Origin: Cliona cf. orientalis
Lineage: Eukaryota; Porifera; Demospongiae; Clionaida; Clionaidae
NCBI GenBank assembly: GCA_963930775.1
Contig: OZ005695.1
Coordinates: forward strand, 5,208,001-5,272,000
Length of the DNA: 64,000 nt
Direction of reading: 5' to 3'
The translations under genes were made by a program, and so were the position numbers. This document shows, piece after piece, positions 2,697 to 60,400 of the stretch (position 1 is its first letter; the number at the start of each line of letters is the position of its first letter). The notes beneath the pieces are model-generated. The model was not told where the DNA came from. It saw only the letters and a program-made list of their open reading frames with translations, and did no database searches.

Positions 2697-3104
2697 TAGT
2701 CTATCAAGCTAGACCCTTTTTCGCCCGACGACCTTTACCTACTCTCCACACACGCGAAAAAGGGTCTAGCAAAGGTCAGTGTTGGAATGCAATTCATTAG
2801 GTGAAGCCATACGAGTGCGCGCTTGGCTCAAAAGCAAGAGAACAGCAGCAGATGGCCCAGTCTGATGTTACTATGTTTGAAAGTAAGTTCTAAAAACACT
2901 AAAAGCATAGTAGGCCTGGTCTAGTGCCTGTTTTGCCAATTGTTACTCTACACCCACGCATAAATTGCTTGCATGAATTTCAAAAGCTGAATCTGATTGG
3001 CCAGACAAAATTTGATTAAACCTGACCTTTGCTAGACCCTTTTTCGCGTGTGTGGAGAGTAGGTAAAGGTCGTCGGGCGAAAAAGGGTCTAGCTTGATAG
3101 ACTA
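2697..3104. mobile_element. Mutator-like MITE with 83-bp perfect TIRs and 9-bp TSD
   Basis: This is a 408-bp element. Positions 2697-2779 and 3022-3104 are perfect inverted copies (83 bp), starting TAGTCTATCAAGCTAGACCC. The 9-bp word CCATTGCAC stands directly before (2688-2696) and after (3105-3113). The uninterrupted sister sequence at 3321-3905 shows the empty site. Long TIRs with a 9-bp duplication are typical of Mutator-like elements (family knowledge). No open frame fits a transposase. Each TIR contains GGTAAAGGTCGTC. Confidence 0.88.
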
Positions 3105-3320
3105 CCATTGCACCATCTGGACAGTAGTCATTTCCTTCATACTTTAGTGGTTAGAAACTACTACGACTCTTATTTCAAAATTGAAAGTGAAAATCAAAAA
3201 TCTGAGACGATTCAATTATTGTTTTTGATCCACTCTACATGCTGATATAAAAATTATTGCACAATACCTTTTCCTGTGCTTCGAATGCATTATTTACATT
3301 ACATTACATTACATTACTTA

Positions 3321-3905
3321 CAAGCTAAACCACAACCTAAGATAAAAGAATTTTATCAAGCAGTAATTAGTTAACGGTATGTCACCATTTTCTATCATAC
3401 ATGTCTGCTACAATAGGTCAGGTATGTGGTAAGGCAGAAAATCTCAAGTTGCAAACATTGATTACTATGTCATAATACTAATGCGTAATATATCTGAGAG
3501 TGATTTGGGGCTTGTATACGTAATCATCCCCTAGTCTAGATCCAACGTAAGGAGCATTGCCCATGGAATGTTGTTGGTGTATGTAGACTGCCTTCCTAGC
3601 ATCACTGGCAGTGAAAAAAAGATGGAAAAAAATTGGCCCCGGGTAGGATTCGAACCAGTGCACGCATTTGACACTGGTTGGCAGACACTGAGCTTAACCA
3701 TTGCACCATCTGGACAGTAGTCATTTCCTTCATACTTTAGTGGTCAGAAACTACTACGACTCTTATTTCAAAATTGAAAGTGAAAATCAAAAATCTGAAA
3801 CGATTCAATTATTATTTTTGATCCACTCTACATGCTGATATAAAAATTATTGCACAATACCTTTTCCTGTGCTTCGAATGAATTATTTACATTACATTAC
3901 ATTAA
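3321..3905. repeat. Second unit of the ~590-bp tandem duplication
   Basis: This is the uninterrupted copy of 2315-3318 with only a few base differences. It shows the pre-insertion state of the site occupied by 2697-3104. It is bordered on both sides by short ACATT runs. Confidence 0.85.
3634..3713 (-). repeat. tRNA-like (SINE-type) block, copy 2
   Basis: The complete form of the block has an A-box-like TGGTGCAATGG and B box GGTTCGAATCC, about 50 bp apart on the minus strand, with a T-run directly downstream. Stem pairing is poor, so no amino acid is assigned. Confidence 0.6.
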
Positions 3906-3907
3906 TT

Positions 3908-3993
3908 ACATTACATTACACGCTCACATATTCTTTTATCTTAGGTTGTAACATTACATTACACGCTCACATATTCTTTTATCTTAGGTTGTA
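3908..3993 (+). repeat. 43-bp tandem repeat, two copies
   Basis: Two identical 43-bp units run 3908-3950 and 3951-3993. Each contains ATTCTTTTATCTTAGGTTGT, the inverse of the start of the 590-bp unit upstream. Confidence 0.85.
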
Positions 3994-4346
3994 ACTACTT
4001 AGTGTGTAACAAGCTACCGTGCACACTAAGCAGAAAAAAAAAACTGTGGCACATAAGTATACGTACCTGCATTGTATAGGTTCGCACAAATTAATATGCA
4101 CTTAGGCTTACTTTACATTGATTGTTTACCATGTAGATACATACACTGCAATACTTTATGTACATTTGGTATATATTACTATGGTAACAACATCTAATGT
4201 CACTAAAACCATTCTTCAGTAGAGTAGAGCATCCATAGTCAAGTCATGTTCAAAACAGCTACCCTAGCCCACAATAATTTAATCAGTGTACAGTGCCTGT
4301 ACGATTTAGCATTGGTATACCATAGTAACAATCATGTGACCAAGTA

Positions 4347-4416
4347 CCTTAGATGATTTCCACCCGCTCCAACTGCGCCGCAGGCGCAGTTAGAGCTTGC
4401 TGGAAATCATCTAAGG
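4347..4416. other. Hairpin with ~33-bp arms
   Basis: The arms 4347-4379 and 4384-4416 pair over most of their length (CCTTAGATGATTTCCA against TGGAAATCATCTAAGG, then AACTGCGCC against GGCGCAGTT), with a small internal bulge and a GCA-sized loop. The size is compatible with a small-RNA precursor, but a MITE remnant is equally possible. Confidence 0.6.
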
Positions 4417-4420
4417 AGCT

Positions 4421-4620
4421 ACCATGCACACTAAGCACAAAAAGTTCCACATGATTAGAAACATGCATGTATGTAATATTCACACGCTACAGTATAATAA
4501 TATTATTATAGTCATCCCGAGTATTACTGTAAAAAAAATGTCCAGAAACCACCACATAGTTGAGCTGGATGCCCATACAATCGGAAACAAGGCCGTCTAT
4601 GATCCTAATAGAGCCTAGAA
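4421..4620 (+). repeat. CACACTAAG MITE fragment
   Basis: The segment starts GCACACTAAGCACAAAAAG and later carries TGTCCAGAAACCACCACATAGTTGAGC-type sequence known from the other copies. The right half is missing or replaced. Confidence 0.55.
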
Positions 4621-4648
4621 AACTCAGAGTATATGATCAGTGTTGAGA

Positions 4649-4816
4649 TTCAGTACCAGTGGCCGCTGCAATACGTTAGTTCCTACTAGTACTCAAGATC
4701 ACCACAGCACACACACAAGGCTAGGGGAAGAGGTTCAGTACCTGTGGCCACTGCAACACGTTACTTTGTACTAGTACTCAAGATCACCACAGCACACACA
4801 CAAGGCTAGGGGAAAG
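4649..4816 (+). repeat. ~85-bp tandem duplication
   Basis: Two adjacent units start TTCAGTACC at 4649 and 4734 and share a long block ending GCTAGGGGAA. They differ at several positions in the first 40 bp. Confidence 0.8.
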
Positions 4817-5009
4817 CACAAAACAATTTTAGTTATGTTTCTCAACTAGATGTACTTTCCCACACATCCACACATACATAACTGTATTACCCCACCTACC
4901 TCTCAGCAAAAACGGGAGAGTTACTGTTGTGACTGATTCCTCATCCATTCAGCAAGTCTCTGGATACAATACCAGCTCCATGGTAGCCTATGCATGTACT
5001 GGACAAGCG

Positions 5010-6115
5010 ATTTTCTAAATAACGCACACCGGGACTCAAAACATTGCAAACACATGGCTTCCCTATACAAACATATGGGTAAACTTTAAAGGGCCGTAAC
5101 TTCAATTCTAAGGCGTGAATCAAAATTTTCTCATATCAAATCTCGTTTTTCGACCCATTCTGCGTGCCCATGTAAAAATTACGTTCCCAAGTGCTCCCAA
5201 TTCCTCCACGAATTAATTTAGTCTTTTTTTTCTACTTAGTGTGTAATAATTAGTGTGTAACAAGGAGACCAGAACACTAAGCAGAAAAAAATTGTCCAAA
5301 AACCACCACATAGTTGACCTGGATACATAGTAGAGCCATACAACGCAATAGCAGGCAGCCTATATATCAATTTTGACCAAAGTGGGTAATGGTCGTCACA
5401 TTGATGTGCGTGCGTGGCCCCGCCCATCACATAGCGCGTGGGCGGAAAACATTGCAAGTGTATGGCTTCCTATACAAACATATACGAATACTTTAAAGGG
5501 CCATAACTTCAATTCTAAGGCGTGAATAAAAATTCCCTGCCATCAAATTTCGTGTTTTGACCCATTCTGCGTGCCCATGTAAAAATTATGTCCCCAAGTG
5601 CTCCCAGTTCCTCCACGAATGATTTCTTTTTTTTTTCTACTTAGTGTCTTAGTGTTTTAGTGTTTTTTAGTGTTTAACTATTAACTACTTAGTGTTAGTG
5701 TTTTAACCAAGCAAGCCTATACACACTAAGCAAAAAAAATTGTCCGGAAACCACCATATAATTGAGCTAGATGCATAGTAGAAGCATGCAATGCAAGCAG
5801 GCAGCCTAAACTTCAATTTTGGCAAACATTTGGTAAAGGTCGTCACGTTTATGTGCGCGTGAAGCCCCGCCCCTCACGTAGCGCGTGGGCAGAAAACATT
5901 GCAAACGCATGGCTTCCCTGTACAAACATATGGGGAAACTTTAAAGGGCCGTAACTTTAATTCTAAGGTGTGAATCAAAATTCTGCTTCCAAGAAACTTC
6001 TAGTTATGACCCATTCTGCGTGCTCATATCAATAATTTGTCGTGAATGTTTTCCCAGAGTCTCAAACATTTCTTTACTTTATATTAAATTCTTTTTTTTT
6101 TTTATAAGCTAAACC
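5010..6115 (+). repeat. Cluster of CACACTAAG MITE copies
   Basis: Three head-to-tail copies are present: a left-truncated one (about 5010-5255) and two fuller ones (about 5262-5690 and 5695-6115). Each has the conserved block around GCATGGCTTCC and CATTCTGCGTGC and ends near TTTCTACTTAGTGTG or a derivative. The copy at 5832-5844 carries GGTAAAGGTCGTC; the one near 5386 has a variant. Confidence 0.75.
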
Positions 6116-6892
6116 ACACCATAATATAAAAGAATTACAACAACCTGTAATTAAGAAATACATGTATTTGTATGCGGGACCATAGAATGTAACCATACAA
6201 GTTTTATGAAGCATTATTATTCAAAAGCCTCGGCAAATCTTACTATTGTGTGGCACACACAGCAAATGATTCATGTGGGCCATGTACCACTTGTCAGCTA
6301 CCATACGTACAAAGTCTATTTGCCAAGTCCAACAACAATGTGCACACAAGTTGCAATTACATTTCATACGGACCTGTACTATTATGTGCAAAGCCTTGAC
6401 GAATCATTGTTGCATACCATTTCCCGCTGATGAGTATGTATGACATTGTGTGTACATACATAATAATATTATGCCAAATCTCAAGTTGCTCGCACATAAT
6501 TTTAATCATAAGGCAGAGTATTACAAACATTAACCGATATGCTACATACTGCAGCTGTTGATGGCTACCTGAAATTCCAATAGCATAATAATTGTACTAT
6601 CCAGCTGAAGCTACTGTAGCACTTTGTGAATGACCACCTGACACTCCTTTATCACTTGCAGTCGTCACAGTTGTCATACCACCCCCAATGAGTCCACTAT
6701 ATCCACAGTTGCAGTGGCACCCACCTATAATATTATAATATTATTGAGCAATGGTTAAGTTAATGTCCAGGACCCACCGTATCATCCACTGTGGAAACTA
6801 GATTGATATCCTTGATCCCTGTCAGCTGATGAAGTTGGAAGTTGTCTTTACTTTTCTAATATCAAATATTATTATCATTATAATATTATTAT
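6116..6892. other. No gene seen
   Basis: This AT-rich stretch has one open frame (6206-6430, plus) without a recognisable motif or composition shift. Short ATAATATTAT words are scattered through it. Confidence 0.4.
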
Positions 6893-7451
6893 CTCCCCAG
6901 TAGCAATTTACTTTTCTGTGGTTATGAGGTAATTATAGTGTAATTATGATGAAACCTATGGTGTAATCTCTTAGGTAATCTATGAGGTAATTATGAGAAA
7001 ATTCAGGGCCTCGCTGGAGCCTTTCTGAGGCTTGAAAATCAGTAAATATGTAGAGTATCTTACGCGTGTATCCAGCGAATAGATTACAAGCTGAGCGCTA
7101 CTTTCTCTGAGAAGTACTGTTGGTTGAACTTCACGTGTTTTCTTGGCTTACGTAATGCCATGGATAAATAAAGCTAGCCTTGCGCTATATATAGCACGCA
7201 TCACTGCCACAAGGGACTGGCCCGCACGCGACTGCAGCAGCGTGACCAACCTGAACTTCGGAAGGAATACTGTGTTGTCGAGTTCGTCTCTGTGATTGAA
7301 GCATCGAAACTTGTCGCTATCAAGGTTGAGAGTCGAGCCCGGCTTAGACGCCATCTCCATGATTTCTGGGGCCAGAATCGATCGATGTGTACGCATTCTA
7401 TTGACGACCTTTTACCACATGCACCATTACACTGTGCAGCTAACTGGGGAG
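6893..7451 (-). mobile_element. CCCCAGTAGC MITE, inverted copy
   Basis: The element runs from CCCCAGTAGC to GCTAACTGGGG. Its inside matches, in reverse, the elements at 13117-13796, 42609-43190 and 48968-49470: the block GAGGCCCTGAATTTTCTCAT and the far-end word GGTGCATGTGGTAAAAGGTC. The open frames at 7148-7396 and 7292-7498 lie within this repeat and are not taken as genes. Confidence 0.7.
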
Positions 7452-10400
7452 ATGGTCAAGGGTTCATTATAGTAACAACTCAAGTTGGTATAATATAGCT
7501 ATATATACCTATCAGAATTAACAACTCTTATAGACTTACCGATGAAATGTTGGCTTCGTAATAATCTGATGTCAAATGCTGATGCTGAAGATACATTTTA
7601 GGTATAGCTAACTTGCAGCCGCTGAGTATAAATTGTTTATAGTACTAACTATACCTATAATACAAAGTACATGAACCTTAGTGGTTTGAACTTACCATAA
7701 TTCGGAGTTTAATTAGCTATTACACCAAATCCAGTTTTATGTTGATATGACTGGTTGAGACTACACTCCTTGCTGATAATATTGTGTTAGTGAAAAAAGT
7801 AAAATTAATCCAAGTTTATAATATCAGATTCTGCTAATTTTATAATAATGTGAGACAGAGCCCCTTTGCACAATCATTAACATAATATTATTAATAATTA
7901 TGCTACAATATTATTATAAATACATTAGCTATATAATATTATCAGAAACGTATGCAAATTAATGAACTGCTATAAAACAAGCTTTAGCTATAGAGCTACC
8001 TAGCTAGATGGGACACCTCAATATACAGCTTCAGAGTCGTCACAATCTCTCAATCTCTGTAGAGTGTTACCGTGTGTGCGGATTAGGTGAGTATAGTGTA
8101 GAACAGTATAAATAATAGACGGGTATACAAAAATAATACATTAGCATGGCAGAGACTGTGGGCCCAGGCTATTAGCTATATAGCTAGCACAATTTCAAAG
8201 GCTAGCCAGAAGTTCATACACTAGACTGGCTTTCAGGTTTAGGGCTGGTTCATTCACCATCCCACAGTGCATGATGGCTTGGTCATTGCCAAACGCATGT
8301 AGCTCATGCAACAAACTGGCATACACATACACATACACAAGTTTATTTACCTCGTTTCGATCAGGGTGAGTGCGGCTTCGCTGGACTCCACCTAGTGAAG
8401 ACAGGCTGTCCTAGCGAACTCTAAACGTAGTGCCAACTCATCCTGTAGCTAGTAGCTAGTGCCGCTCTTGGACCGATCGCTTGGATGTCCTCAGTAGCTC
8501 ACGTTCTGACGTACATTAGCCAAGGCTAAGGTGACCTTTGCGCGACCCCGAACAAACCCGCAGGTATGCTTGTTTGTCTTTATTAATTAGTACGCGGTAT
8601 CCGCGATTGGGCGAATGCGTCATAGCCTGCGATCGAGTTTGTACAGACTATATGGACGTACATGGAATACGGGACTTCCCCCGCACGTTAAAACCACTAA
8701 ATCTAGCATTTACTCGGATATGAAAGTAAAACTAAAAATTCTGCCCACAACATTTTTGAAGATTTTTCATTCTGTCCATGTATATATAAATTTTATCTCA
8801 TAAAACCCTTCCCACGGCTAGATAAGTTAATTATTTACATTACATTACTTTACATTACATTACTCATACGGAAATTCTTTTTATCTTATGGTGTAACTTA
8901 GTGTGTAGTAAGTCGTTGCGGTTAATAGTTAAGAAAGAATGCTTTGATCTTGCTTTGATGTGGGCAATTACCGGTCTTTTCTTCAGGGGCCACTTCCGGT
9001 CGCTAATTACACGCGCATAATCATCCCTGGCCGATTCTGGACATGCCCACCTTCGACCAAAAACACTCGTATGGCCTCTTCGGCCACGCCCCCTCACGAT
9101 TCGCTAATTGAATTAGCCATTCCTCACGCTCATGCCCACGCAATTTAATGGTACCTTAATAGTGCAGTTCCAACTAAGGTCAGTCCCGAGTGTAGTTTAG
9201 TACCCTCATGAACGACGAACGACACTTACAATTTGGTTAACTATAGCTAGCAACGAGTCTGAGAGACAGAGCGAGATATAAATATAGAGGCTTCCAGAAC
9301 GGTTCATTACTAAGCAGGTGTGGTTTAACCGTGCAGCACGCAGTTTGAGCATGCGCAATAGCCTCACCTTAGCATTATTGCACTAATTGGATTCATAGAA
9401 AATAATTACAGACAGTCGCTTCCGTTCTGATAGAATACAAACAATTCCTGGAATTGAATTTTCTTGTGGTAATTGGATCATGCGTTCTATTAGCATAAAC
9501 ACGGTAATAACTGGGCCTTAGGTGTGCAGTGTGATTCAGAGAATTTACAAAATTCACATTTCAAGTTTTTCAGGCTTTTCATAGAGGGGTTCATATGTTT
9601 TTTATGGCATTTTTTTATGCTATTCAGGCCATTTCACATATCAAGTGTTCCTAAGGCCCAATTTTTACTTTATGTTCACACATGCGTGCAAGTACGTGTA
9701 GATATAATTATATAATGTGATGACTAAGAACACCTAAGTAAAGGATCGAGGCTCTTTACAGTGCTCAGAAAATTGAACATGCAACAAAACAAGTCTCTGG
9801 TGGCATAACTGAATGTACATGCAATGTACCAACAGTCTGTAGTATGGGATATTAGTAGTACCAGTTTACTGTTGCAGGCGTCTCAAATCTACCAGCGCAA
9901 ACGCCTTTGCACTACATGCATTTGATCTCCCCGTACTTTTGTGGATTATACCACAACATGTGCCCATACTTACTTTAATTGAATTCTTGGGCTTATATAT
10001 AACTGGAGTGCTATAACCCATGCACTGCATTTGCATACTGCTGTTGCTCACGAGCTTGAAGTAGAATTTAAATTTTATGCTTTCACTCTCTCTCTGAGCA
10101 TGGGAAGGTGAACATCTTCAAATGCTACAGTTAATATTCGCTGTATCAACATTTAGGAAAGTTACACTGTACACACGAGGCCAATCTGTGATGCACATAC
10201 ATCAAATAGTAATTCTGAATTCTTTCTTCTTTTGGCTTCAGAACCCCGGGCAACTTGACTACAGAGGCACCAAATTCTGCTCAAGGGCAATTATAACCAC
10301 AGCTAGTCTTTGTGGATGTAGTGAAATTGTGCAATTAGCAAACTATCATCCATACATGTATGCATACACACACATTTCCAATCCCCTATCAAGATTGTGA

Positions 10401-11690: not shown

Positions 11691-14600
11691 GTAAGTTTTA
11701 AACTTTATTGTGTATGCATGAATATTTTATGGATCCCAAATTTGATCTGATAGTGAATGTCGGAGTGACCAAGGGCCTCTGCTTACAACATTATACTTAC
11801 TCCCTTTAGGTGATAGTCAGGCAATTGCTTTCGTGGTGATCAATATACATATGTGTATACTGGCCCATTAACTTACTAATGACCCTCCATCACCTCTAAC
11901 TATAAGCAGGGATTGATGGCCCAGATATGCCATATATGTAATACGTACATTACAAAAACATCAATAACTTAAGATTTTTAACTTTCATATTCATGGCCTA
12001 TGCCTGAATACCTATCTATCAAGCCCCACACATCCATGGAAACCTATGCATGCAGCTGTGTAAAAAATTAGCAATTTGTCATTCTTTCTTTCTTTTTTAT
12101 TTCCAGGGCTAACTCAAGACTACCTGGACCGCTTACCTTAGTTTGAGTGTAAATTCACTCTCATTTTGTAGCGCACAGTGCAGTACGTGTCGTGCTAGTT
12201 TGTGTTATCACAACAGCTATGTAATGGTGGGTTTGGTCAGCGTATTCTACGACTGGGTGTGTCTGATCATAGATATTATAGACTACGTAAGCGTAATATC
12301 TATGGTCTGATACACTATTTTGTCATTTACTGTGCATGCTCATACAGTGTTGCCATGGTGAAGTTATGTGATGGATTGATGTCAGTGGCACACGCCGACG
12401 CAGCCAGGACCGCAGCTACTCGATCGAGCGCTCATAGCAGCTCAGTGCACTGTCCAGAAGTAAAGTTACCAGCCTCTAGAATTTGCTCCCTAAACAGAAG
12501 TTATTTATCCCTACTTGTCCTAAAACAGCCTTCTTTCAAGTTTGCCACTGTCAGCCAGCTATCTTCAGGATCGAATTAATGTGGGGCGTGGCTTCATTCG
12601 TATTACTATCACAGCAGTGCCGCACATTGGAACGGTGAGCCGGTTGGCACTCGTTACCTGCAGCTATGCTATTGACGAGTATATATAAAGAGAGAGAGGG
12701 AGAGTATCGAACAGCGTATGTGCCGTGTGTAACAGCTGTTTATACGGTACTTGTGCGTGCACATTGGGCTGGCCTGAGCTGTAATGAATTAGGGTGACCT
12801 CCAAACATGAATATCATTACAAAGGTCATGAACCGTACGAACAGCTGTTACAAACGGCATATGCGCAGTTCAACACTCCCTCTTAGTCTATACTCTTGCT
12901 ATTGATGCATCTGCTGTTGACACAGCATGCAGTGAGGGGTGTTGGCGTATGCAATAATTGTTCAAAGTTCGTTCCGCCGCAGAATAGTTTGTGAGCATGT
13001 ACTGTTAATAGATGATCATGTAATCCATCACATTATCCCATGATTACGACATCAAACATACTTAATTGTTATTAGAAGGATAAATTGTACTCGGCTTCGC
13101 CTCTAATACTGTACTATATCCCCAGTAGTTGCATAGTAATACAGGTGCATGTGGTAAAAGGTCGTCAACATGGTGCATACCGTATTTCTTCTAAAAATTC
13201 GGCCCTTCTAATTATTCGGCACCCTTTACCGAATGATTGAAAATAGTCTCTAATTTTCGGCAAAGGTCGTCACGCATATATGCTATAAACAGGAATGGGA
13301 TGCACACGCAGACAGAATGTTGAATAATATTAACCTCTAAAAATTTATTATTTTTTATGCCGAATTTTTAGAAGAAATACGGTGTTGCGTACAAAATTGT
13401 AACAATGCCCTAGTCGCAAAGATGGAGCCTCAGACCAACTCTCGATTTCAAAAGGGACAAATATCAGTGCTTCAGTCACAAAGATGAACTTATACAGCTT
13501 CCAAACTTCTGATCAGTCAGGTCGTGGAGGGCATGCTATACATATAGCGCTGGCTAGTTATATTTATACATGGGATTACGTAAACTAAGACGTTCGACCA
13601 CCATATCATATTTGTCAGAGGAAGCAGCACACAGCCTATGAGGTAATTCCTGGATACATGCATTAGATACCTTACATACTAGCCGATTTTCAAGTCTCAG
13701 AAAGGCTCCATTGAGGCCCTGAAATTACCTCATAGGTTACACCAGAATTAGTTACATGTACCTCATGATCTTAACCACATTGCTGCTGGGGATACTTTCA
13801 CTACATCCCTCATCCCTCGTAATAATAATTATGACATTGCTAGTGTACACCACCCATTATTGGACCGGTAACACCTCGGACTCGACCACCCCAAAATACA
13901 AAGTGCACATGCTCAATATTGGAGCATGCACGACGTGGAGCTGAGTTGACCCGGACGTGACCTCAACCTGCCATGTGGTCGCTGAGCCTCAAATATACTG
14001 TACTGAATAGGGAAATCTCCCCCGTGTTCGAGCTTGTGATCTGAGAGAATTGCCATATCTGATCGATAGTCCACATTGATCTCTTTTACAGTCAATCCGC
14101 CAATGTACGCATTGCCGTATACTTCTATTAGAATTTATTTGCACTCTCTAATTATCCGAATTGACGTACATTTCAGCACGAAATCAATCTGCAGAAAGTA
14201 ACGGCTGCCAAAATGGCAGTTTTAGAGTGATAAAACATTCTTAACTGTCGAATTCACCAACTTTGACGCAAGATTAAGCTATCCTGCTGATATTCAATCC
14301 CTCGCCATCCGTTATTCGGACTCACAAGCTCACCAAGTAGAGCAGCTCTACCCATCACCAGAGAGGTGCATCAACAAATCAGTGTCCGAAATGCAGTTCT
14401 TATCTCACAATCGTGACTATACTTTGTTTGCATATTATTAACATATTAAATCAGTGTACGAAAGTAATAGCAAGTGTGTACTTGATTTCTAATCTGAAGT
14501 ACAGAGCATCAAAATTGCCTAATTTATGCCTTCAGGGAAGGAGCTAGCTGAACTTGGCTTGAATTCTTGTACTGAGTGCTGTGATGTGTGCAAGAGGGAT

Positions 14601-42381: not shown

Positions 42382-42405
42382 AACTATGGTTCATCATTAC
42401 TATTA

Positions 42406-42462: not shown

Positions 42463-45400
42463 CTGTATGAGATTTAACATTCAGTAGTGATTATAACGAA
42501 CAAGTAGCTTGTACCTCATGTATCTTTTGTTCTGCTGCCATTGGATTTACTATCTCAAGACCCTGTACAAGTAGAACGGGTGTTATAATAATGAAACACT
42601 ATACCATATGTTGCCAGTAGCTTTATGGTATGTTATAATAATGGTGCATGTGGTAAAAGATTGTCAGTACAGTGTGCACATTGATGCCTCTATCACGGAG
42701 ACAGAACCGTCTCTTGACCACCGTCTCTTGACCTCATGATGAATCTCAACACTTCAATCACAAAGGATGAACTAGGTACAGTTTCCATCGTGGACAGTGT
42801 GCTATAATAGTTGATGAATCTCAACACTTCAATCACAAAGGATGAACTAGGTACAGTTTCCATCGTGGACAGTGTGCTATAATAGTGCAAGCTAGCTATA
42901 TTTATACTAAGGATTACGTACATCATACTATTAATTTTGCCCAAGTCTCTATGCAGTGACAAAGAAAACTGAGAGCGAAATTGAACATGTGTATTGAGTA
43001 CATCATAGTGTGCGCAGTACCATACCCCTGGACTAGGTTGCTGTCACAAAGGCTCCATTGAGGCCCTGAATTTTCTCACAATTACCTCATCAATTATACA
43101 ATAAGTTTCATCATAATTACCTCATCAATTATACAATAAGTTTCATCATAGAGTAACCTTATAACCATGGAAAAGTAAATAGCTACTGGGGATGTGTTTG
43201 CCCCTATACCATCTGCATCCTGCTCAAGATGAAAGCTGCAGCATGTGTCAACCTGTTGACAACCTTTAACTGCATAATAATATTCTGTTAGGTTGTGTGC
43301 ATGAGAAGGCACATGGCCTAGTAGGTACTGTCGATAGGTGTGGCTATGGTGGCTACCAAATATGTGATGCTCATAGACTGTGTCCATCGATTTGAAGCAC
43401 ACTGAAGCCATTTTTTTATTCGTTGTACTTACAGGTCACTCAGATGCTTACATTTCCAGATCTGGCTATTTATTCGCAAATAACAGACACAACCAATTAT
43501 TTTACCCTTGCTACACATGCGCACACAGGGTATTTAGTAGTCCAAGGGTAGCTAAGCAGCAAGCTAATGTATGGCAAGTAATTTGGGGGGAGGGGGGGTA
43601 CCAATTCTGTGATTCTACTTCTATGCATATGATAGAAATTTAGTCTAAGTGGCATAAACTAATGGATTTTCAGATGGATGATACAGCTCGATTTGGTTTA
43701 ATAAACGGCAAAAAACCATTCAAATTGAAGATGCCATCAGCTGGATGCATTAGTAAACCACAGAAGCTCTTCAAAGTCCTAGATTTATCAAATAATATTA
43801 TTCATGAATTAGAATAGTAGCAATCAGGAGCACTGATGTGCCATTTGACCACCCTACGAAACTCGTCCTCTAAATCCAACCTAGTCTGTACCCAATCAAT
43901 TCTAATTAATTTTGGTGGGGTTAGTTTTAAGGTATTCGAAATAACCTGCAGTGGAGTAAATGCAACACTAGACGCAGTACCAGAAGACATTCCCCGTACA
44001 GATGATTTTCCACCAAATACTTGGGCACGCTGTATTTGTCTCTAAAGCATAATAATATGATGTATCATAACTACATGAATTATTTAGATGTAGTTAAGCT
44101 TACTTGAAGACGTTTAGAAATCGAAACTTGTGTTTTTTTATCAACAGTTGGTCCACGCACTGGTCCAGCGACACCACCTTTACCTAACTGTCCTGTTGTA
44201 AATCCTAAATCATCTTGATAGGCATCATCTTCAATCTATAGGAATAGATACCATGTATTAATAATTTTATAATATTATACTTAGCTATGGTGCAGTAATA
44301 ACACTATTATAATGTCTAATATTATGATCACTGCATTCTGATGCTACAAACAACACACTGACAAGTGTATGATAAGCAGCTGTCTGCAAGTGAGTTAAAA
44401 GCTAACATGAGCTACTAGTACCACTGTCTAATTCAGAGAGAATGAAGCAAAAAATTTAAAGCGCACAAAATTGTAGCAGCACTGAACAGTGTATCTAATA
44501 CGTAGTGTCCCGGCAAATGCCCACTCCCAGGTAAGCACCCATGTAGCTCGTTTCAAGGGTTCTATACAAGTTGCATTCCAGGTATATAAGCACCCATGCT
44601 GGCCAAAATCAAGAGTTATGTTTCAGCGCCCATGGGCACTTACCCAGGACACTACGGTATGTACATAAATGGAGCAAACTTTCAGCCAATTCTCTCTATA
44701 GAGGAAGAGGGATTAGAAACCAATAATTTTTAGGGAGAATAGCTGGCTGATGGTTCACTTGTATGCCTTGAGGAAGCTGAATACCTGGAAATTGCTGCCC
44801 ATGTCCTCAAGACCATTGTAGTGTGCTCTACTCCTGATGATAACAGTCTCAGATATGACCATTAATTTTATTGTGCTATAATATTATAATATACTTCTGC
44901 ATAAGTCCTTGGCTATACACAAAATTATAGGTTTTGTCATATTTGCTACAGGTTATGCCTATTACCTTTTGTAGTCATGAGTAAGCTCCATTACCAAGGA
45001 AACTGTGAAGCTTAAGATCAAAAACCAATTTCTACAATAATATATTATGTCTTCAGTGAGCTTGCTCTGCTCACTCATGCCGTTTCATTAGACAGTTGGC
45101 ACCTGACGACCTTTACCTACTCCATATTGGCTCCTAAATGTCGCTCTTTTACATTCACCGTGCCACCATAATATCCAGTGTTCCTGTTAAAAATATTACA
45201 TGATGTCCTTTTGTAATGTCAGGTTAACTCACGCTTCCATTGGACATTTTTACTGGTCAGAATGTGCACAATTTAAGGACCCCCCCCCCCCCCAATAAAA
45301 CTTTCACAAAAACAATTAGTCATCCAATGTTAAGCAGTCATATCGTCAAGGGCTTGTAAGCCCTTGGTATCGTCATCCACACAACATGTAGATACGGAGG

Positions 45401-48400: not shown

Positions 48401-51400
48401 TGGATTTATACTCGAACCAAGGTGAGCGGTCAATGAGTTAACCCTAATAGTGAAAAAGAAAGATAGACAAAATACGCTTTTCCTACAAGTTTAAAAATAT
48501 TAAAAATTTTTCTGCTCCGAGTTGTTAACAGCTTTGTTTTGTATTACATATATGGCATATCCGGGTCATCCCTACTTACAGAGTCTACCGACTCTATGAT
48601 AAGAAAAATGTCACTCTGAAAAACATATCCATTAGTATAATATTTGGGTATTTGAGAGGGATCTCGAGTGCCCTCTGCAATAACTTCTAGTAGTGGTTAC
48701 GGAGACTGAACTTTATGGGTAAGCATACGTGATATAAAAGATTGATGCCGAGCAAAGCGAGAGTTCTACACAACCCCAAGGTCTCCTAAGTGTTAAAAAA
48801 GTACTAGAGACTATTAGTACATAAATCCAAGGATTAGTGCTAATTTGTGCATACTTAGCAAGATTGTTGGTAATAGGTGTTTTCACACTTCTCTAGGTCG
48901 TGTCATCATCACAATCACCCTTTAACTCATTAGGTATGATTTGTGTTTGGTATGAAAAATTTGACCACATCCCCAATAGCTGCATATAGTTATTATGGTG
49001 CAGAATATTATGGTAAAGGTCATCAATATAGTGCGTACATGATCACAATTAAACCACATTGATACCAGCGGCTCAATCACAGAGATGGAGTCTGAGACCA
49101 ACTCTCAACCTCGATAGTAACAATTAAGTTTCGATGCTTCAATCATAGGAGATGAACTTGACAGCGCCGTACAGCTTCCGAATGTCAGGTTGGTCGCGGC
49201 ATAGCATGCACGCAGCGTACGTGCCATATAATATAGCACAAGGCTGGCTTTATTTATCCACAGGATTACGTCAGCTAAGAGAACACACAAAGCTCGGCTG
49301 GTGATACTTGTTGAAGAAAGTAGCTCTCAGCTTTAATGTCTTCGCTAGATACAGGCATCAGATACTCTACATACTAACTGATTTTCAAGTCTCAGAAAGA
49401 TCCATTGAGGCCCTAATTTTCACATATTTACCTCAGATTACACCATAGGCTTCGATATTTATCATCTCTAATACAACACAACCTCCGAAACTTTAATCTT
49501 CACAGCGCTCTAATTTTACTAACTCGTAACACACATACATAGAAACCGACGAAACAGTGTATAACAATTTTAGATCCTAGTAACAATGTTCAAAAGCTTG
49601 ACATATCAACTGCTGCCTAGCAACAACCCTAACCAAAGGCAACAATTTTTACAAGTGTTGTACAGAAACTTTTACAAGTGAACCTACAATCAAATTTCAG
49701 TACTAGTTACAACTACGTTCCAAAGAGTAGTAGACCACACTTTCCTCCTCCCCCTTATATTATCTACTCTAAATAGTATTGTACGACACTATACCTCCCC
49801 AAAAGTCAATCTGTTGGCTTGCTTCCTCATCTGAGAAACTGCGTATCTTTCTTTCATCTTCCGTACTCTATAGTAGGGTATTATAAAATGAGTCCTATTA
49901 TTACCGTACTCCTAAACATTTAAACAATCATGATCACACTTTCCATTCACTGCACAAGGAAATCTTTGCCAAGTGCATGTTCAGCAAGGACACCAAACAA
50001 ACAGAGATTAAACTTGCATGCAAATAAGCTCCAATATATTATTATTACAGTGGAACCCTTCCAATCTGGATCCCTTGGAACCCAGTTTTAGTGGCCAGAT
50101 TATCAAGGTGTCCTCTTTCAGGGGTAATTGATACACCAACTACTATAAAAGCAACATAAATTGAAGGGATGGGAGGGTCAAAAAGTACACAAACAAGATT
50201 AGTAGGGATAATCATATCCACCATGCATTATTTGTTAAATGGCACTAGAGCACCACAGACCCTTCCATTCATATCTGCATTGATAGCAGCTGAATTATAT
50301 TCGAGCACCACAAGAATTACAGCTTAATTGATAGGTGTGACCAATCAAAAACTCCCAGCATTATCACCACTGCTAAATGTCAGGAGTTATATATAATACC
50401 ATACCTTATCTAATAGAACGCATAAAATTTTTTTAAAAATGCACGTTTTTCCAGGTAAAGGTCATCACAATGTGTAAACATCATGAGAATTCGTAACTTA
50501 TTGCTATTACGTTAAATTGGATCATGTGTTCCATTAGATTAAGTACGGCATGCAGATATTTAGAGGGTTTCATTTAGGATTTTCGTCAAGGGGGCAAACG
50601 TGATAATCACGGAGTTAAGGGGCGGCAAGGATTGTACTAGTGTTTTTTATCAGCCAAGAATAACATTGTGGTCATTAACTAGGATAGGAGGGTCTGAAAT
50701 TCTACATTTTTAACTGCTGAGACTGTGTCTGGTGGCTTCTGAGACCTGTCTTGTCAGTGATATCTACTGGTTCTCCTCCCTTTTAATACAGTATGTTTCC
50801 TCCCGCGCGGAGCGCGAAGCTGAAATTAAAAAGGAGCAAAAAAGTGCCTATTTGGACACTTTCGCCATTCAAAATTCTTATATTGCGTATATGGTTTGTG
50901 GCAATTCTCAAGGGGGAGCAGCCAGCTTCCAAGGGGGGGGGGGCGAGTGCCCCCCTGCCCCCCTAAATGAAACCCTGATTTAGGAATATCCTCTTTGAGA
51001 TTCCAGACTCAGGGGGGCCTCATCCCCTTGTCAGAGCCATTGAGGCAGTGTTACAGCTTATACTTGCCTCCTTCCTCCACGTTTCTTTCTAGGAGCATCG
51101 TCTGGTTTCGGAAGTGGCTTTGGTGCTTTCACTGGAGGAGGCTCCATTAATTTATCCACTTTCTTTTGTACCTCCTCACGCAACTCTACACAATAAGCAT
51201 ACACAAATACATGGATCTATCTTATCTCCCATAATTTAATAACTTACGTTCACCAACTTCACCACCTGGACATTCATGGAAACTGTCCACTCTAGCAGCT
51301 AAAGTACACTTACAAGCAATAAGCCTTGCAACCTTTTTACGGATATCCTAATATATATACATAATTAGATAAATGAGTGTTAGAATGTTATGTTATAAAA

Positions 51401-54400
51401 CTTAGTATCTCACAAGAGGTGCATTCTGTACAATGTCCGTATAAAAGACAAACCCAGAATGAGGAAGAACTGTAGCCGTCGAAAATCCTGCAAGCGTTTT
51501 CTTCTGTGCTCCTAATACCTATTATGTGCAGTATGGAATGATTTCACCAATGCAGTAAAAGGTCACCACATCTTCTAGTACCAAAGGATAAAATTTCATC
51601 AAAGAGAGCAGCTAGGTGCAAACGTTTCCAGGTAAAAATTTGCAGCTACAATCAGGTATCGTAGAATTCCACAATTACGCACCGCACCCCCCCCCTTATA
51701 TTTGTGCATGCTAGCATTGGGCAAAAGTGGGGAGGGGGCTTACTGTAGTGTTCCGGGCAAGCACCCACTTCTGGGTAAGCTCCCATGTACCTCATTTCAA
51801 GGGATCAATTAATGTAGCAGCTTCTATACAAACATATGGAGATTATGTCCTGGGTAAGTGCCCAAACGGGCCAAAATCACCATGTATCTTTAAGCACCCA
51901 TGGGCGCTTACCCGGGACACTATGGTATACATGGGATCGTTACATCTCTGTGTGGTGACCTTTACCAACCATCGAATGCCACATAAGCACGCACGCGATC
52001 TCTGTGCTTTCTCAGGCTGTTTGGTGGGTGAAACTCGAGAAAAACTACAAAGGCCTATTACGACACAAATAGCTAGTTTGCTTGCTGTGCACGTGGCTAG
52101 ATGTATAACTAAAAACTATGCTGTAGAATGGTTATAGTATTGTATATATAGGATCTATACACCTTAACCGCCATAAAATTGAAGCACTATTGTGCAAAAA
52201 ACCTCTGTGAACTATCACAATTGCCTATAGATTTAATGCTCCTATAGCTAGATCCTAGATGCTTGCAGCACGATAAAGAGCACGCATGCAGCTGAGCCAG
52301 GCTAGCCAGTACGATACAAACTGGAGTAACCACAGCAATGTGCACAATATGCACCACTGCGCCATGGCCTAGCTGGACAAGCCATGTACTGATCTCATCA
52401 TCATGCAAACCTAGAACCCTGGAGTCAAAGAAAGCCACTCCAAATTCAAATAGTCATCACTTCAAGCTCTCGGTTCACAATGTACGAACTATCAGTGTGT
52501 TTTCTACTGAGAAAGAGCTGAGTTACCAATCACTGTGAACGTTCTCAGCAAATTCCACACTGTAAAAGGCTACAGCCTGCTTTGTAACACCTCACTTTGG
52601 ACATAATATAAACCAGTAATGTGACTGCTAGCATGGTATCATACCACAGAAAACAATTGTAACCCTCGTGCACGCACACTGAGGCTAAACATAATAAGGA
52701 GAGTAATAATAAAAATACACACAAGATAATTAAAGACCATGAGCAAATAATACCACTACCATGCGAATACGAATCCACAGAAAGTACTCCTAACACAATT
52801 AAGTTCAAACAGGGGGGTGAGCCGATATGACTCGCTGAAGGACCATATACCTTGCATGCCATAAATATACACACAAGGAACTGGCCATGGCTAGCTGTGT
52901 ATGTATACGTACTAGGCATTTCCACCAGATGCAGTTTTGCAGGTGTCCACAGTCTCGTGAATCAGACCACTCCCTCTGCAGCGCTGGATGTATTGCATCA
53001 CCAGCATGCGGAAGCTGGTGGATGCAATACATCCAGCGCTGTGGAGGGAGTGGTCTGGTTCATGAAACTAGCATACACAGTAGTTGCATGCTTCTTCACT
53101 GCCTTCGGCAGCTAATATGCTCCTGATAGTACCATATACTAGGGTTATGTAAACCATGGAGGGGACGAACCTGCATAGATTTTAGAGCTGGAGGATTGGG
53201 TTCCCCCACAGGAATTCTATCCAAAGCACATGCATAAGTATCCATTAATATTGTTCATCTGATGGCAGTATTAAAAATCTGTCGTAGCTAAAGCCAAGGG
53301 ACAAGCTAATATCTATACACATGTCAATAGTTGCGTACCATGCATTCTTATGAACTTCCACGACTACCATGGTGTTCCAGGCAAGCGCCCATGCACTACG
53401 TTTCATAGGATTAATATAGCAGCCTCCATACAAATATATGGTATGCGGGCCAAATCACAAGTTATGTTTAAGCTCCCACGATTACCCAGGACACTACAGT
53501 AGTGTTGAAGGCCTCCCTCTAGACTGGTTCATTCCCAGTACAGAATACTGACAGGAGCCTTGGGCCTATTCAATCACACTGAATGTGGCCAAAGCTCTTG
53601 ATTCATCTGGGCAATTATAGCCTCAGTTGTACCCAGGGCAACTATTAACCAATGTTGACGATGTTTACAACAATAATATATATGTGCATGCATTATGAGC
53701 TAGCAAGCACGTAGACGACGTATCGCTACATACATACAAATGTACAGCGGTTTGTTGCATTGATTAGTGCGGGGCTCGCTTAGGCTCATCCCAAAAGCCG
53801 AGTGTAAACCACTGGAGTAATCATGGTAGGCGCCCCAGACCTCCTTTAAAATCTTAGACGCATGAATGTTGCTTATATATTCGCCAATATGTGCATACTA
53901 CTTTGCTGGCCTAAGCACTTGCCATCTGGTGGATTTTCAGTATACAATACATAAACATTCTAATTACAGTACCACCCTAATTTAAGTGCCCCATGAAGTT
54001 TTAAACAATATATCGGGTTCTAACTATAGTGCCACTCAAACCACAAAAAAGTTTTAGGCAGGGCTTACTAAAATAATTAATAGACAAATCACTATCGCCA
54101 CTGAATCATCAATTTCACCAACTCTGTCGTCAGTTTTCTCCAACAGTAGTAGTTCAAATAGGTTGATAATACAAAAACATGTACTAACTGACTTGACTTG
54201 ACCAGGCATCAGTAGAAGATGAAAGAATAGTACCTACTACGTACATATTCCAAGCACTACCAGCTTTTTAACCCTCGTCGCATGCACCGTCGGGTTATAC
54301 TACTTGTTCTGTCTGTCTGTCGGTGTGTATCTATCTGTTAAGACGAAATCTGCTGCCTATCTCGTCATAGGGTTCTTGATAGTGTTTTCAAGGTTTTATT

Positions 54401-57400
54401 GTGCGCTTTCACTAAAAATGCTTCACTCAAGAGTTCTGGCATCATTTCCTAGTCAAAACCGCCTTCCTCACTCCCTGGCGAGCATTGAATGGATAAAAGA
54501 CAGTAACAAGAAGACTGATTCATCACTGATCATGGCACACTGGTAGATTAATTGGTAAGGTTCATAGCATGCTACAAACAGCTGATACAGCGTCCAGTGA
54601 TGCCAAGAAAGGAAACGTTTTAGCTCTGCCGAATCGCTTCCAGTCACCTCCCGCTTGTACATGTATGTCACTGACAGACAGACAACTATGATCTTAGTAT
54701 AGTGATTGTTGCATTCTAAAAAAAATAATACCTTTCTTCATTGTTGTCTGGCACATTTGCTCTCTTAGATCATCATCACTTTCCTCAGTATCAACATCAC
54801 TGTCTACAATCTCTTCTGCACCCCATCTCCTTGAAGCCATTATCAGTGCTATCATTTCCAGCTATGAATGTTGAGTGAATTGGGGGATGTCTTTATCTAG
54901 CCACGGATACTTAGCAGGGGCACCAATAGCGCCAACACTAACAGGTGCATAGATCGCGCTCTTTCATCAACCAGCGTATACGTGTCTTCTGTAATCAGCT
55001 TGTGTAATATGTAATGTGGTAGAGTAAGTTGTGCCAACAACAGCTTTGTCTATCACTCTTCAATCGACTCTACTACAAGTAAGTAGTACTTGCACTACTT
55101 CTCTGAGCTTATACATGTATGTAGTAGAGAATACCGTATAGCCAGAAATATCGGCGGGAATTAAATTTGGCGGGTGTGCCGAAAATCGCTATTACAAGAA
55201 TATTGGTGGATTTAAATTTGGCGGTTCGGTAGGGGATCACCATATGTATACATGTATATGCGAGTGGGAAATTTTGGTGAATTTTAGTTTGGCGGTTGTA
55301 ATATAGACCGCCAAACCGCCAAATTTTCCGGATATACGGTAAGTCAAGATATTAGCACACTTTACCCACTAAAGTATGATACTGCAGTATTCATAGTCAA
55401 TTACAGTCACCTAAACGTGACATTCAGTAAAGGCAATACACAGTAACATGTCACGCAAATGTGACATTCGGGGTTAAAGAGATTAAGGAATGCTGTAATA
55501 GAACCACCATCAGCATTCAGGCGGCTCCTGTCCATCTACCACATTAAAATCCTACATATAACTAGAGCTCTGTAGAGAGCACATACCCCGCGCGCACATT
55601 GCGCAATCTATAGAATTGCTTTGCCACAGTATTCATGGCTATAATTGTGAACTTCAGAAAATTAGTGGAAATGCTGCTTAATTGTACAATGTCCTAGCTA
55701 CTGGAGGTCCCGGCGATAAAAGCACTCTCTCTGTACCAGATCTAGACTACTAGGAGATATGAACTGATACGTCCAATAGTCTGTATAGTATAGCTATCTT
55801 ACATTATGGTTTGGTTCCATATGGCTGCAGATTTCAGCTCCATCAGCGGATTCAGATGGAGTACAGATTTCAAGAACATTATTAATTTCGACGATCTTTA
55901 CCAGTCATAATATTATTCTTGGCTACTTAGTTGTGCACATGAGCAGACAACACAATGGGCATGCATTATGCACTGTCGATAGGCGTGCATGGCTACGTTA
56001 GCTAACAAAAAGGCACTATTTGCGACACCCATGGACCATGTCCATCGATTTGACAGACACTGAAGCCAGTTTTTCGCCCAATTCAATTGATTCATTGTGC
56101 TTACGAGTCGCTTAGACGTCTGTATCTCGAGATATGGCGATTTTTGTGCTCACGACGACGACGACACGACCGATTACTTTACCCCTTGCGCATGCACGTG
56201 GGGTAATTAGTAGATATACATGTATTTGTATACTCGATAAGCATCAGCACTTTGGAATGATATTGTTAATTATCCCTACAAATCTTGATTGTGTATTTTT
56301 TGGTACTGCCATCCCTACTTCATTCTATCAATTGTTCTTGTAACATTAAAAACAAAATGTTATTAGATCTTCATGGTATTTTATCAATTCCAAAAATAAG
56401 GCCCCTCTCTTTTTAACCCCAACTTTTTGCACAAGTATTTTTGCCTCATTTATAAGTCCGTGCCCCTACCATGCAAAAATTCCACCATCAGCAAAATAAA
56501 TACCTAGTGATCAACGGTATCTTCTTCATTTATCAGCTCTTTCTGCTGAATATCATGGCAAAGGTTCCTTGGATAGTGGCGGTAGCCTATAGCTACCTAT
56601 CGGTCTGGCTGGTATCGTGGAATTGACTACGTGAGCATTAGCTTCTTGCCACTGTATTGGAGCTTAAAACGACAGCAGACTCCATACGATGGCCAGACAA
56701 GCTTTATCAGAGTCGGTAGACTCTATAAGTAGGCATGGCACAGATACTCCACATATGTAATACATTACAAAAATCCAAATATCTCAAAACAGGTAACTTT
56801 GTGAAATTTCTAAGTGTCAAAATCAGAATCTACAGCAAATTATCTATCTAACAAGACCAAGATCATCCATCAACTCAATTGTATATGCCAGAACCAGATG
56901 TTCAAAAATAGCTATTTGTCAATGTTTATTTCTTTCTTTCTTTCTTTCTGTTTTCCTGGGCAAACTCAAGACTACCATGTCCGCTCATCTTAGTTCGAGT
57001 ATAAATCCTCTCCATTTGGAGTGCGCACGTCTGTGGCACGCTCATTTTGTGTTATCAGGATAGCGATTTAATTGTGGGTATGTACAGCGCATTTTGCAAG
57101 TGGGTGTGTCTGATTAACCATTTTGTCACATAATGCACATGCTCATGTGGTGTTGCCATGGTTAAGTCATGTGACCGATGTAAGTGGTGGGCGTGCGCCG
57201 GCGTATCCAGGACCTGCTCGATCGAGCGCTCAGCTGATCAGCGCTGCAGCTCAGTGAACTGTCGATTATGGTGGTTACTTACCAACAGTAAGCTTACCGG
57301 CCTATAAAATACGCTCCCGAAACAGAAGGTTTTCGCTGCTACTTGGTTCTAAACAGCCTTCTTTCAAGTTTGCTGGTCAGCCAGCTTCAGGATTGAGATA

Positions 57401-60400
57401 ACGAGGGGCGTGGCTTCATTCGCAGGGCAATCTAGACGCTGGTTACCTGAGCTGTCTCGAGAACCCCACTGATGCATGTTCAATAGTGTGTGATGCAAAA
57501 GAAGACGTCCTAGCTAGCTATCAAAAGACTGCCTGGGATTTGCACTTACAGGAGTATTCAAGTTTGAACTCACTGTGTGTTTGGGGTACCATAGCTGCCT
57601 GACTCAAAGGCTAAGATCACACAAACATGCTGAATCAGTGGTATACTTGCTTCCCTATAATAATATATTGTATTATTGTTGTAGCATGGTTGGATGTAGC
57701 TAGGTCCAGAAAAAATTTTTAAAGTTATGGCTGCATTAAATTTTTACTATCATAGAGTCGGTAGACTCTATAAGTAGGGATGGCACGGATACTCCATATA
57801 TGTAATACATTACAAAAATCAGAATATCTCAAAACAGGTAACTTTTTGAAATTTCTAAGTGTCAAAATCAGAACCTACAGCAAATTATCTATCCAACGAG
57901 ACCAAGATCATCCATCAACTCTATTGTATATGCCAGAACCAGATGTTCCAAAAAATAGCCATTTGTCATTCTTTCTTTCTTTCTTTCAAGGAGACCAGAA
58001 CACTAAGCAGAAAAAAGTGTCCAAAACCACCACGTAGTTGAGCTGGATGCTTAGTAGAGCCATACAATGCAAGCAGGTACCCTATACTCCAATGTTAACC
58101 AAAGTACACCCATACAATGCAAGCAGGCAGCCTAAACTTCAATTTTGGCCAAAGTGGGTAATGGTCGTCACGTTGATGTGCGCGTGGGCGGAAAACATTG
58201 CAAATGCATGGCTTCCTATACAAACATGGGAAAACTTCAAAGGGCCATAACTTTAATTCTAACGTATGAATCAAAATTCCATCCGGTCAAACCTATTACT
58301 TTGACCCATTCTGCGTGCCCATGTAAAATTATGTCCCCAAGTGCTCCCAAATCCCCCATGAATTAGATTATAAAGTTTTTTTGTTTTTTTCAAGCTAGCG
58401 TGCACACTAAGCAGAAAAATTGTCCAGAAAACCACATAATACACCTAGGATGCACAGTACAGTGGCGTATCCAGGGGGGTGCTCAGGCCGGGGTGCTTGA
58501 GCACCCCCCTTAGCCTCAGAGGCATACAATTAATTGGTGCTAACATGCCATAGTTTTTATATCAATAATGTCACTAGCACTTTACTATATAAAAACGCTA
58601 TACTAAAGCTTCAAAATCGCTAGCTAGTTCATTAGTGGCTGCTCACCTGAACGTTTTCATCATTTTGAGCGGTGAAGACTGGAGAGTATGGGCGTTTCTT
58701 AATAATGCACACCCAATAACAGGCGAAAATGGGGGTGTGGTCAACAAAAGTGGGCGTGGCTTCCAAATTTTCACTCATTACTAGTAAGCATCCCCCTTTG
58801 TTAAATCCTGGATATGCCACTGCAGTAGAGCCATACAAAGCAGGTAAACAACCTAGGATGCACAGTAGAGCCATACAAAGCAAGCAAACTCCAATTTCGA
58901 AAATTTTTCTAAATAACGCACATCACGGGTATTCCCCGTTTTTCATGGGTGGAAAACATTGCAAATGCATGGCTTCCCTATACAAACATATGGGAAAAGT
59001 TCAAAGGGCCATAACTTTAATTCTAAGGCATGAATCAAAATTCCCCAAGGTCAAATCTCTAGTTTCGACCCATTCTGCGTGCCCATGTAAAAAGTATCTT
59101 CCCAGGTGCTCCCAGTTCCCCCACGAATTATTATATTTTGTTTTTTTTCTATTTAGTGTGTAACTACTTAGTGTTTAACTACTTAGTGTGTAATTTTTTT
59201 CAAGAAGCAGACACACTAAGCAGAAAAAAACAGTCCAGAAACCACAATAGTTGATAATAGACCCATGCAATGCAAGCAGGCAGCCTAACGAAAGTGAGTA
59301 AAGGTCGTCACGTTACTGTGCGCGCGTAGCCACACCCCTCACGTAGCGCGTGGGCGCAAAATACTGCAAATGCATGGCTTCCTATACAAACATATGGGGA
59401 TACTTCAAAGGGCCGTAACTTTTAATTCTAAAGCGTGAATCAAACTTCTTTCAGGTCAAATCTCTAGTTTCGACCCATTCTGTGTGCCTATGTAAAAATT
59501 ATCCCCCAAAGTGTTCCCAAACTCCCCGTGAATTAGATTATTTATTTAATAGTTGCTTTTTCTACTTAGTGTATAACAAGGAGACCAGAACACTAAGCGG
59601 AAAAAAATGGTCCAAAACCACCACATAGTTGAGCTGGATGCTTAGTAGAGCCATACAATGCAAGCAGGAACCCTATACTCCAATTTTGACCAAATTTAAA
59701 TCTTTTTTTTTCAAGGAGACCACACAAGCAGAAAAAAATTGTCCGGAAACCACAACGTAGTTGAGCTAGATGCTTAGTAGCACCATACAATGCAAGCAGG
59801 CTGCCTATACTCCGATATTGGTCAAATTGGGTAACGGTCGTCAAGTCTATGTGCGCGCAAGCCCCGCCCCTTTAAGTTTGCTTTTTTTCCTACTTCTTGT
59901 TGTGTAACTACTTAGTGTTTAACTTTCTCATTTCCAGGGCTAACTCAAGACTCTCTGGACCTCTCACCTTGGTTCTCATATAAATCCACTCTATTTTGTA
60001 GCGCGCAGTGCAGTGGCTCGCTAATTTTGCGTTATCTCTACAGTCACGTAATGGTGGGTGTGTACGGCGCATTAAAGATAGGGGGTGTGTCTGATACGCT
60101 ATTTTTGTCATATAATGCGCATGCTCATAATGTGTTGCCATGGTGAAGTCATGTGACTGCAGTCAGGGCGCGCGCCACCGCCGCTAGCGCATAGCAAGCC
60201 AGCCTCGAACCAAGTTAGCTTAGTCTAGCCATAGCTAAGCGCCAGGCTCTCCCGCACGAGCTAGGCCAGTGCAAGCGCAAGCTTGATAAAGCAAACCTAG
60301 CTAGAGACTAGCGTGTGCAGCGCTAGTACTGCACTGGGATATGGAGACTCAAGGCCTCGACGTACGGGCGCGGCACTGCCCTCAGCAATCGGTATAACAG

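Follow-up and report, generated by a model that had tools for sequence, protein, structure and literature searches.

A 13-bp word common to unrelated transposon-like repeats of a demosponge, a candidate site for a host DNA-binding protein

Introduction

The spread of binding sites by transposons is known, and most known cases concern one or a few transposon families for each factor. In mammals, CTCF sites have been spread by retrotransposons (PMC3368268), and in Drosophila the MSL recognition elements have been supplied by different transposable elements, including a Helitron (PMC6417741). Two further systems are described by Kim et al. (2025; PMC12221973): a placozoan chromatin-loop motif, which lies inside the terminal inverted repeats (TIRs) of Mutator elements and at promoters and has been proposed to be the site of an architectural protein, and the GC-rich motif of the ctenophore proteins CTEP1 and CTEP2, whose binding has been shown by DAP-seq.

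In this study, we have analysed a 64-kb stretch (hereafter, the window) of the genome of Cliona cf. orientalis, at positions 5208001-5272000 of contig 7, in which an initial annotation made from the letters alone had pointed out a word of 12-13 bp recurring in several repeat families. We have found one word common to families with different ends, one of which is Mutator-like, and its conservation within families is measurable from the sequence. Such a word is a direct handle for finding a DNA-binding protein, and the system lends itself to asking if one host site has been captured by transposons over and over.

Abundance of the word

When the window was searched for GGTAAAGGTCGTC (hereafter, the word) with at most two mismatches, 19 places were found, whereas 100 dinucleotide shuffles gave 0.50 on average and never more than 2. 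Five are exact (2727 and 45105 on the reverse strand; 3062, 5832 and 31968 on the forward strand), eight have one mismatch (5385, 13259, 49012, 50454, 55890, 58157, 59297 and 59830) and six have two (7403, 13154, 20920, 43258, 44172 and 51954). The recurrence across the window reported in the initial annotation has thus been borne out, all five exact copies lying where it had placed them, and the two copies that it described as one base longer, at 7403-7416 and 13153-13166, do read GGTAAAAGGTCGTC. The copy that it gave at 59298-59309 is present as part of a 12-of-13 match at 59297..59309, and seven of its shorter or one-base variants start within 4 bases of the reported place, whereas that at 24546 is a weak resemblance, AGCAAAGATCGTC, with three mismatches. 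The places at 5385, 20920, 43258 and 44172 are additions to its list.

An important check was the count in the whole assembly (216.8 Mb in 149 contigs), for which the same annotation had named near-expectation numbers as the outcome that would speak against its reading. The exact word occurs 5,914 times versus 17 for the reversed-word control, about 350-fold, with no strand bias (3,015 forward versus 2,899 reverse), and with at most one mismatch the counts are 14,970 and 778, respectively. The excess is therefore real genome-wide and is beyond a peculiarity of the window. In 200 kb taken as twenty spaced 10-kb stretches, the exact word was found 4 times versus 0 for the control, and the mismatch classes showed no excess (one mismatch, 2 versus 3 for the control; two mismatches, 5 versus 9), so that the exact class alone stands out in this sample. 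An explanation by chance or by composition could appeal to these mismatch classes, which stay at the control level, and has nothing to offer for the exact word; the window shuffles and the genome-wide reversed-word control both contradict it, and we have rejected it as having practically no probability, in agreement with the initial judgement that chance recurrence was unlikely.

Another check was a ranking of all words, none being preselected, by the number of unlike contexts in which each occurs, applied to 264 kb (the window and the twenty 10-kb stretches). With five unlike contexts from nine copies, GACGACCTTTACC was the top 13-mer listed when TACATGTA-like words were left aside; among the words of 10 to 12 letters, several had more contexts than the word. 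The complexity filter initially excluded the 12-mer of the word, GGTAAAGGTCGT, the shifted TAAAGGTCGTCA then ranking third, and the filter was lowered afterwards.

Spacing was examined over the initial 3.75 Mb of contig 1. The copies are evenly distributed among 250-kb bins, and 21 of the 99 gaps between copies are shorter than 1.5 kb versus 3.9 expected; 16 of these 21 join copies in the same orientation, and no convergent or divergent preference was seen in this stretch. The word retains its CpG in a genome whose CpG observed/expected ratio is 0.56-0.58. Prokaryotic genomes and viral contigs searched with one and two patterns gave no match, the window gave no Rfam match at gathering scores and no ARAGORN match, and among the matches listed by a literature search with parts of the word, none was by its title a motif paper.

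Repeat families carrying the word

For classification, 79 distinct exact sites were sampled from the window, from loci of the genome count, from forty short stretches and from the twenty 10-kb stretches. BLAST of their 70-bp flanks gave 22 clusters, and clusters of three or more hold 64 of the 79 sites. Most copies lie in repeats, so that amplification alone yields high counts. In alignments anchored at the word, shuffled flanks scored 19.1 on average (sd 7.1) and 40.0 at most, out of 250; seven clusters were merged into others at scores of at least 52, and the locus L024, scoring 43.0 with group 2, was left single. The anchored alignment also placed five single sites in family 1 as diverged members. 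After merging, there are 15 flank groups: sizes 27, 15, 13, 5, 4, 3, 3 and 2, and seven singles. The group of five represents three elements because two of them contribute both TIRs, and one group of three represents two loci. Some rows of a masked-word alignment (window 58100 and 59254, for example) contained gap artefacts, and its mean word identities have been left unused.

These groups comprise seven repeat families with little or no mutual similarity outside the word, as the initial annotation had claimed for the families of the window: mean anchored scores between families (up to six members each) range from 7.8 to 28.0, mostly near the shuffled mean, and among the 21 family pairs three lie just over the highest shuffled score, with 43.5, 41.5 and 40.5. 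A single repeat family behind the word has been rejected on the basis of the 15 flank groups and the seven dissimilar families. The same word in several families without other clear homology is what a host-factor site dispersed by transposons should present. A different account holds that all families go back to a single ancestral element, or carry the relic of one mini-insertion, of which the word alone is still recognisable. The three marginal pairs, the five single sites that the alignment assigned to family 1 as diverged copies, and a TTCAATTTTG stretch found upstream in two family consensuses, at different distances from the word, can be cited for common ancestry, but most between-family scores stay near the shuffled level and the TIRs found differ, so that the anchored alignment leaves it unsupported apart from these marginal pairs.

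In the window, five copies of the word belong to the CACACTAAG family, all on the forward strand: an exact one at 5832..5844 and one-mismatch copies at 5385..5397 and 58157..58169 (both with T at position 6), 59297..59309 (A at position 1) and 59830..59842 (C at position 6). Two further copies of this family, at 1589 and 2001, are without the word. A repeat of the CCCCAGTAGC family spans 6891..7453, with ends ATCTCCCCAG...CTGGGGAGAT and bounds set by eye, and holds GGTAAAAGGTCGTC at 7403..7416 on the reverse strand, 37 bp from its right end; the same longer form at 13153..13166 (forward) adjoins a CCCCAGTAGC stretch, and the family copy at 49012..49024 (forward) has one mismatch that changes CpG to CpA. 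Adjoining the word at 13153, a TA-CCGTATTTCTTC MITE with a 25-bp perfect TIR lies at 13178..13383 (outer bounds by eye), and contains a one-mismatch word (C at position 3) at 13259..13271 on the forward strand. The exact word at 31968..31980 (forward) lies in a repeat related to the locus L046 of group 2, the GCGCATGC family, about 0.9 kb past an ORF with a Vps16_N match, and a one-mismatch word at 55890..55902 (reverse) adjoins a related repeat stretch. The one-mismatch word at 50454..50466 (forward) is in a diverged member of family 1 with a weak TIR (E = 0.01). For the exact word at 45105..45117 (reverse), BLAST against 354 kb gave no other match to its context, and the two-mismatch word at 51954..51966 (reverse) reads GGTAAAGGTCACC.

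Several other observations were made in the course of this inspection. A stretch at 20621-20815, by eye TACCGTA-ended, contains GGTACAGGGTCGTCC, which resembles a degenerate word with an inserted base. Perfect tandem duplications are found at 3908-3995 (43 bp, adjoining TTACA repeats) and at 42737-42886 (75 bp). The ORF at 30665-31024 has the Pfam Vps16_N match (E = 5e-11), and VPS16-like exons, assigned by eye, seemingly extend from about 17200 to 31350. Among the sampled loci, L003 (1291-1513) has two inverted copies of the word about 200 bp apart, each next to TGCGCATGCGCA, a possible composite site, and L056 has two tandem copies, spaced by 41 bp and embedded in repeated CCACCCACTTTA/CCGCCCACTTTA units. 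The TGCGCATGCGCA present in some GCGCATGC-family copies such as that at L003 may be an NRF1 site, and GCCCCGCCCC in CACACTAAG copies may be an SP/KLF site; both serve as leads.

Ends of the elements and the Mutator-like element

Mutator-like elements are defined by long TIRs and a 9-bp target-site duplication. The element at 2697..3104 (408 bp) has perfect TIRs of 83 bp and is bounded on both sides by the 9-bp direct repeat CCATTGCAC, its target duplication, and is therefore assigned to this class; it carries the exact word in both TIRs, at 2727..2739 (reverse strand, left) and 3062..3074 (forward strand, right). It is non-autonomous, being too short to code for a MULE transposase, and it is inserted in a repeat that by eye looks tRNA-derived. 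Two repeat copies at 2625-2720 and 3640-3720 have by eye a tRNA-derived SINE head (GGATTCGAACC on the forward strand), and the element adjoins or sits inside one of them; ARAGORN and Rfam, the latter at gathering scores, reported nothing at these two copies.

Inverted repeats were searched for at 48 places, of which 21 had none and many others weak ones. Well-supported TIRs start with TAATACCATACTTAATC (L008), TACCGTGTTTATGC (L018), ATATACCGTATAGC (L011), ATACAGTGGAACCCC (L034) and, in the element with the one-mismatch word at window 13259, ACCGTATTTCTTC; L003 and L015 have a 12-bp TACCCCGCGCGC inverted repeat with weak support (E = 0.53). The TIRs found differ from family to family, and several elements have ACCGT-type ends in common. 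Short elements (L008, L018, L021, window 13259 and 50454) each have one internal word, at a distance of 58-112 bp from either end.

The word might be a site of transposition itself, recognised in all these elements by one transposase or cofactor. Its presence in both TIRs of the Mutator-like element and the common ACCGT-type ends fit this explanation, but it is confined to a single internal position in the short elements, it lies within inverted repeats in the Mutator-like element only, and it is missing from two CACACTAAG copies, because of which we regard a transposase site as unlikely. The differing inverted repeats, target duplications established for the Mutator-like element only, and the presence of the word upstream of two kinase genes also argue against it.

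Conservation within families

The initial annotation had proposed examining whether the word is conserved above the background of the families that carry it. We have collected family copies by their flanking letters alone, leaving the word free to vary. For family 1 (search pattern TTTTTCT-13N-AATCGCTCC), the word is unchanged in 229 of 346 copies, and the adjacent 13 bp match their consensus in 67 of 296 (Fisher p = 3e-29), with an implied per-site divergence of 0.031 versus 0.108, where the control consensus is our own choice and may be split among subfamilies, lowering the control match. For the CACACTAAG family, 88 strings out of 316 copies were analysed. Among distinct strings, 36 of 51 have an unchanged word and 23 of 50 an unchanged 12-bp control segment (Fisher p = 0.016; 0.0226 versus 0.0950 changes per site); among all strings, the figures are 64 of 88 and 55 of 87, one control string having been dropped for its length. 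The commonest change in this family is T at position 6 (14 of the 88 strings). In the GCGCATGC family, counted for the word alone, 35 of 50 copies are exact. In both families having a control, therefore, the word is conserved above the family background. A neutral relic should be no better conserved than its surroundings, and because the word outconserves the control segment in the two families tested, we consider an insertion relic or a common ancestral element very improbable.

Shape of the motif

Position 6 is the most variable: among the 9,056 one-mismatch copies in the genome, 3,470 are changed there (38% versus 7.7% if changes were even). Each position-6 variant thus has about 1,157 copies, whereas the other 36 neighbours have 155 on average. 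Position-6 variants occur in at least two contexts, in CACACTAAG copies and as GGTAAGGGTCGTC after GTAACCCTC-like flanks (L032 and L037), and the count comes in part from the one CACACTAAG subfamily with T noted above. The longer form GGTAAAAGGTCGTC occurs 1,214 times versus once for its reversed control, and it may be a family form since both window copies lie with the CCCCAGTAGC repeat. The position-6 variants and the longer form may thus be family variants rather than a sign of tolerance by a protein. GGTAAAGGTYATC, which covers the CpA variant of the CpG as well, has 731 copies genome-wide.

When flanks were weighted by group, the base following the word is A in 82% (rounded binomial, 6e-5), position -2 is T in 65% (binomial, 3e-3) and position -1 is almost never C; among the 24 flank positions examined, the following A alone is strong, and the T at -2 fails correction for multiple tests. 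A fixed core with one freer position and fading edges would have the look of a protein site, and the word may be read as the triplets GGT-AAN-GGT-CGT-CA, as for C2H2 fingers.

Copies near host genes

ORFs were examined at loci outside the large groups (L007, L012, L013, L019, L020, L022, L023 and L024) and at window 45105, and the Pfam scan covered six of these loci (L007, L012, L013, L019, L020 and L022) and window 45105. At L019 and L020, 6.5 kb apart, there are two paralogous protein kinase ORFs (PF00069) whose proteins are 78% identical over 314 aligned positions, and the word ends 102 bp and 148 bp, respectively, before the first methionine, the start codons being presumed. BLAST of the near-upstream stretches, which extended some 190 bp past the word, gave a single match outside the coding start, a block of 39 bp (94.9%) surrounding the word. 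This evidence comes from one paralogue pair, and gene conversion could mimic a footprint. A transposon origin of the word is possible at L020, because another repeat, common to L020 and L026, begins 18 bp from it. On the other side of the word at L019, the start of an ORF with granulin domains lies 636 bp away.

A protein kinase gene at L007 has the word between two of its exons, and at L012 and L013 the word lies in a delta-COP-like gene (PF00928 in one L012 ORF; the assignment at L013 and the intron placement at both loci are by eye); these three copies may be remnants of transposable elements. Pfam found nothing in two L013 ORFs, in one L022 ORF and in two of the three L012 ORFs, nor in six of seven window ORFs of one set and in one further window ORF.

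The predominance of repeat clusters (64 of 79 sites) would also suit a promoter or regulatory site internal to transposons that host genes do not use. The conserved block upstream of the kinase paralogues speaks against so restricted a role, which we hold to be improbable; since a host factor would still be needed, it is in any case a narrower form of the explanation by a host protein that we favour below.

Discussion

A word found in unrelated families and also upstream of two related genes suggests a host DNA-binding protein, and among the readings of a shared functional site given in the initial annotation, the best fit is that of a host-protein site, ahead of a transposase site and an insertion relic, which are less likely; the AAGGTC and TGACG half-sites that it pointed to are conjectural. 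We have directly observed an excess in the genome, families without clear similarity outside the word, a word that outconserves a control segment in two of them, and a copy preserved in front of the two paralogues; a host protein together with spread by transposons accounts for all the observations at once. The word is probably the site of a sequence-specific DNA-binding protein of the host, dispersed by many transposons. It would be the core of a site of approximately T-D-GGTAA-n-GGTCGTC-A (D = not C), carried internally, or in one family within the TIR, by several unrelated transposon-like families, to which it would owe the spread of most of its ten thousand or so copies (5,914 exact, 3,470 of GGTAANGGTCGTC and 1,214 of the one-base-longer form). 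The putative binder may be of the multi-finger C2H2 zinc-finger type, as suggested by a long, asymmetric, fixed word readable in triplets. The candidate site may act in promoters, enhancers or chromatin anchoring, and transposons may keep it because it opens chromatin or provides them with a promoter; the sequence would look alike for a promoter role and for a role in chromatin architecture. A more specific proposal is that the site belongs to a lineage-specific architectural or master promoter protein, in a role like that of CTCF or CTEP, having been seeded independently by at least seven unrelated families and kept in some cases by gene promoters; this is conceivable but rather doubtful at present.

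Each of the known systems resembles the present one in some respect. As in the case of mammalian CTCF, sites of a host factor appear to have been dispersed by transposons (PMC3368268), but those are retrotransposons carrying another motif, whereas the carriers here are mainly small DNA-transposon-like repeats. In Drosophila, too, different transposable elements supply the motif of one host complex, there for dosage compensation of a neo-X (PMC6417741), while the word is spread genome-wide. The ctenophore CTEP system is alike in that short sites are numerous, there for C2H2 zinc-finger proteins specific to the lineage, and differs in that its motif is GC-rich and bound in DAP-seq, the word being not especially GC-rich and its binder putative (PMC12221973). 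In placozoans, one Mutator family common to species was combined with Micro-C, as compared with seven repeat families and sequence alone in the present case (PMC12221973). The placozoan motif and the word, likened here by description rather than by motif letters, have in common that each is a short motif in Mutator TIRs of a non-bilaterian animal (PMC12221973).
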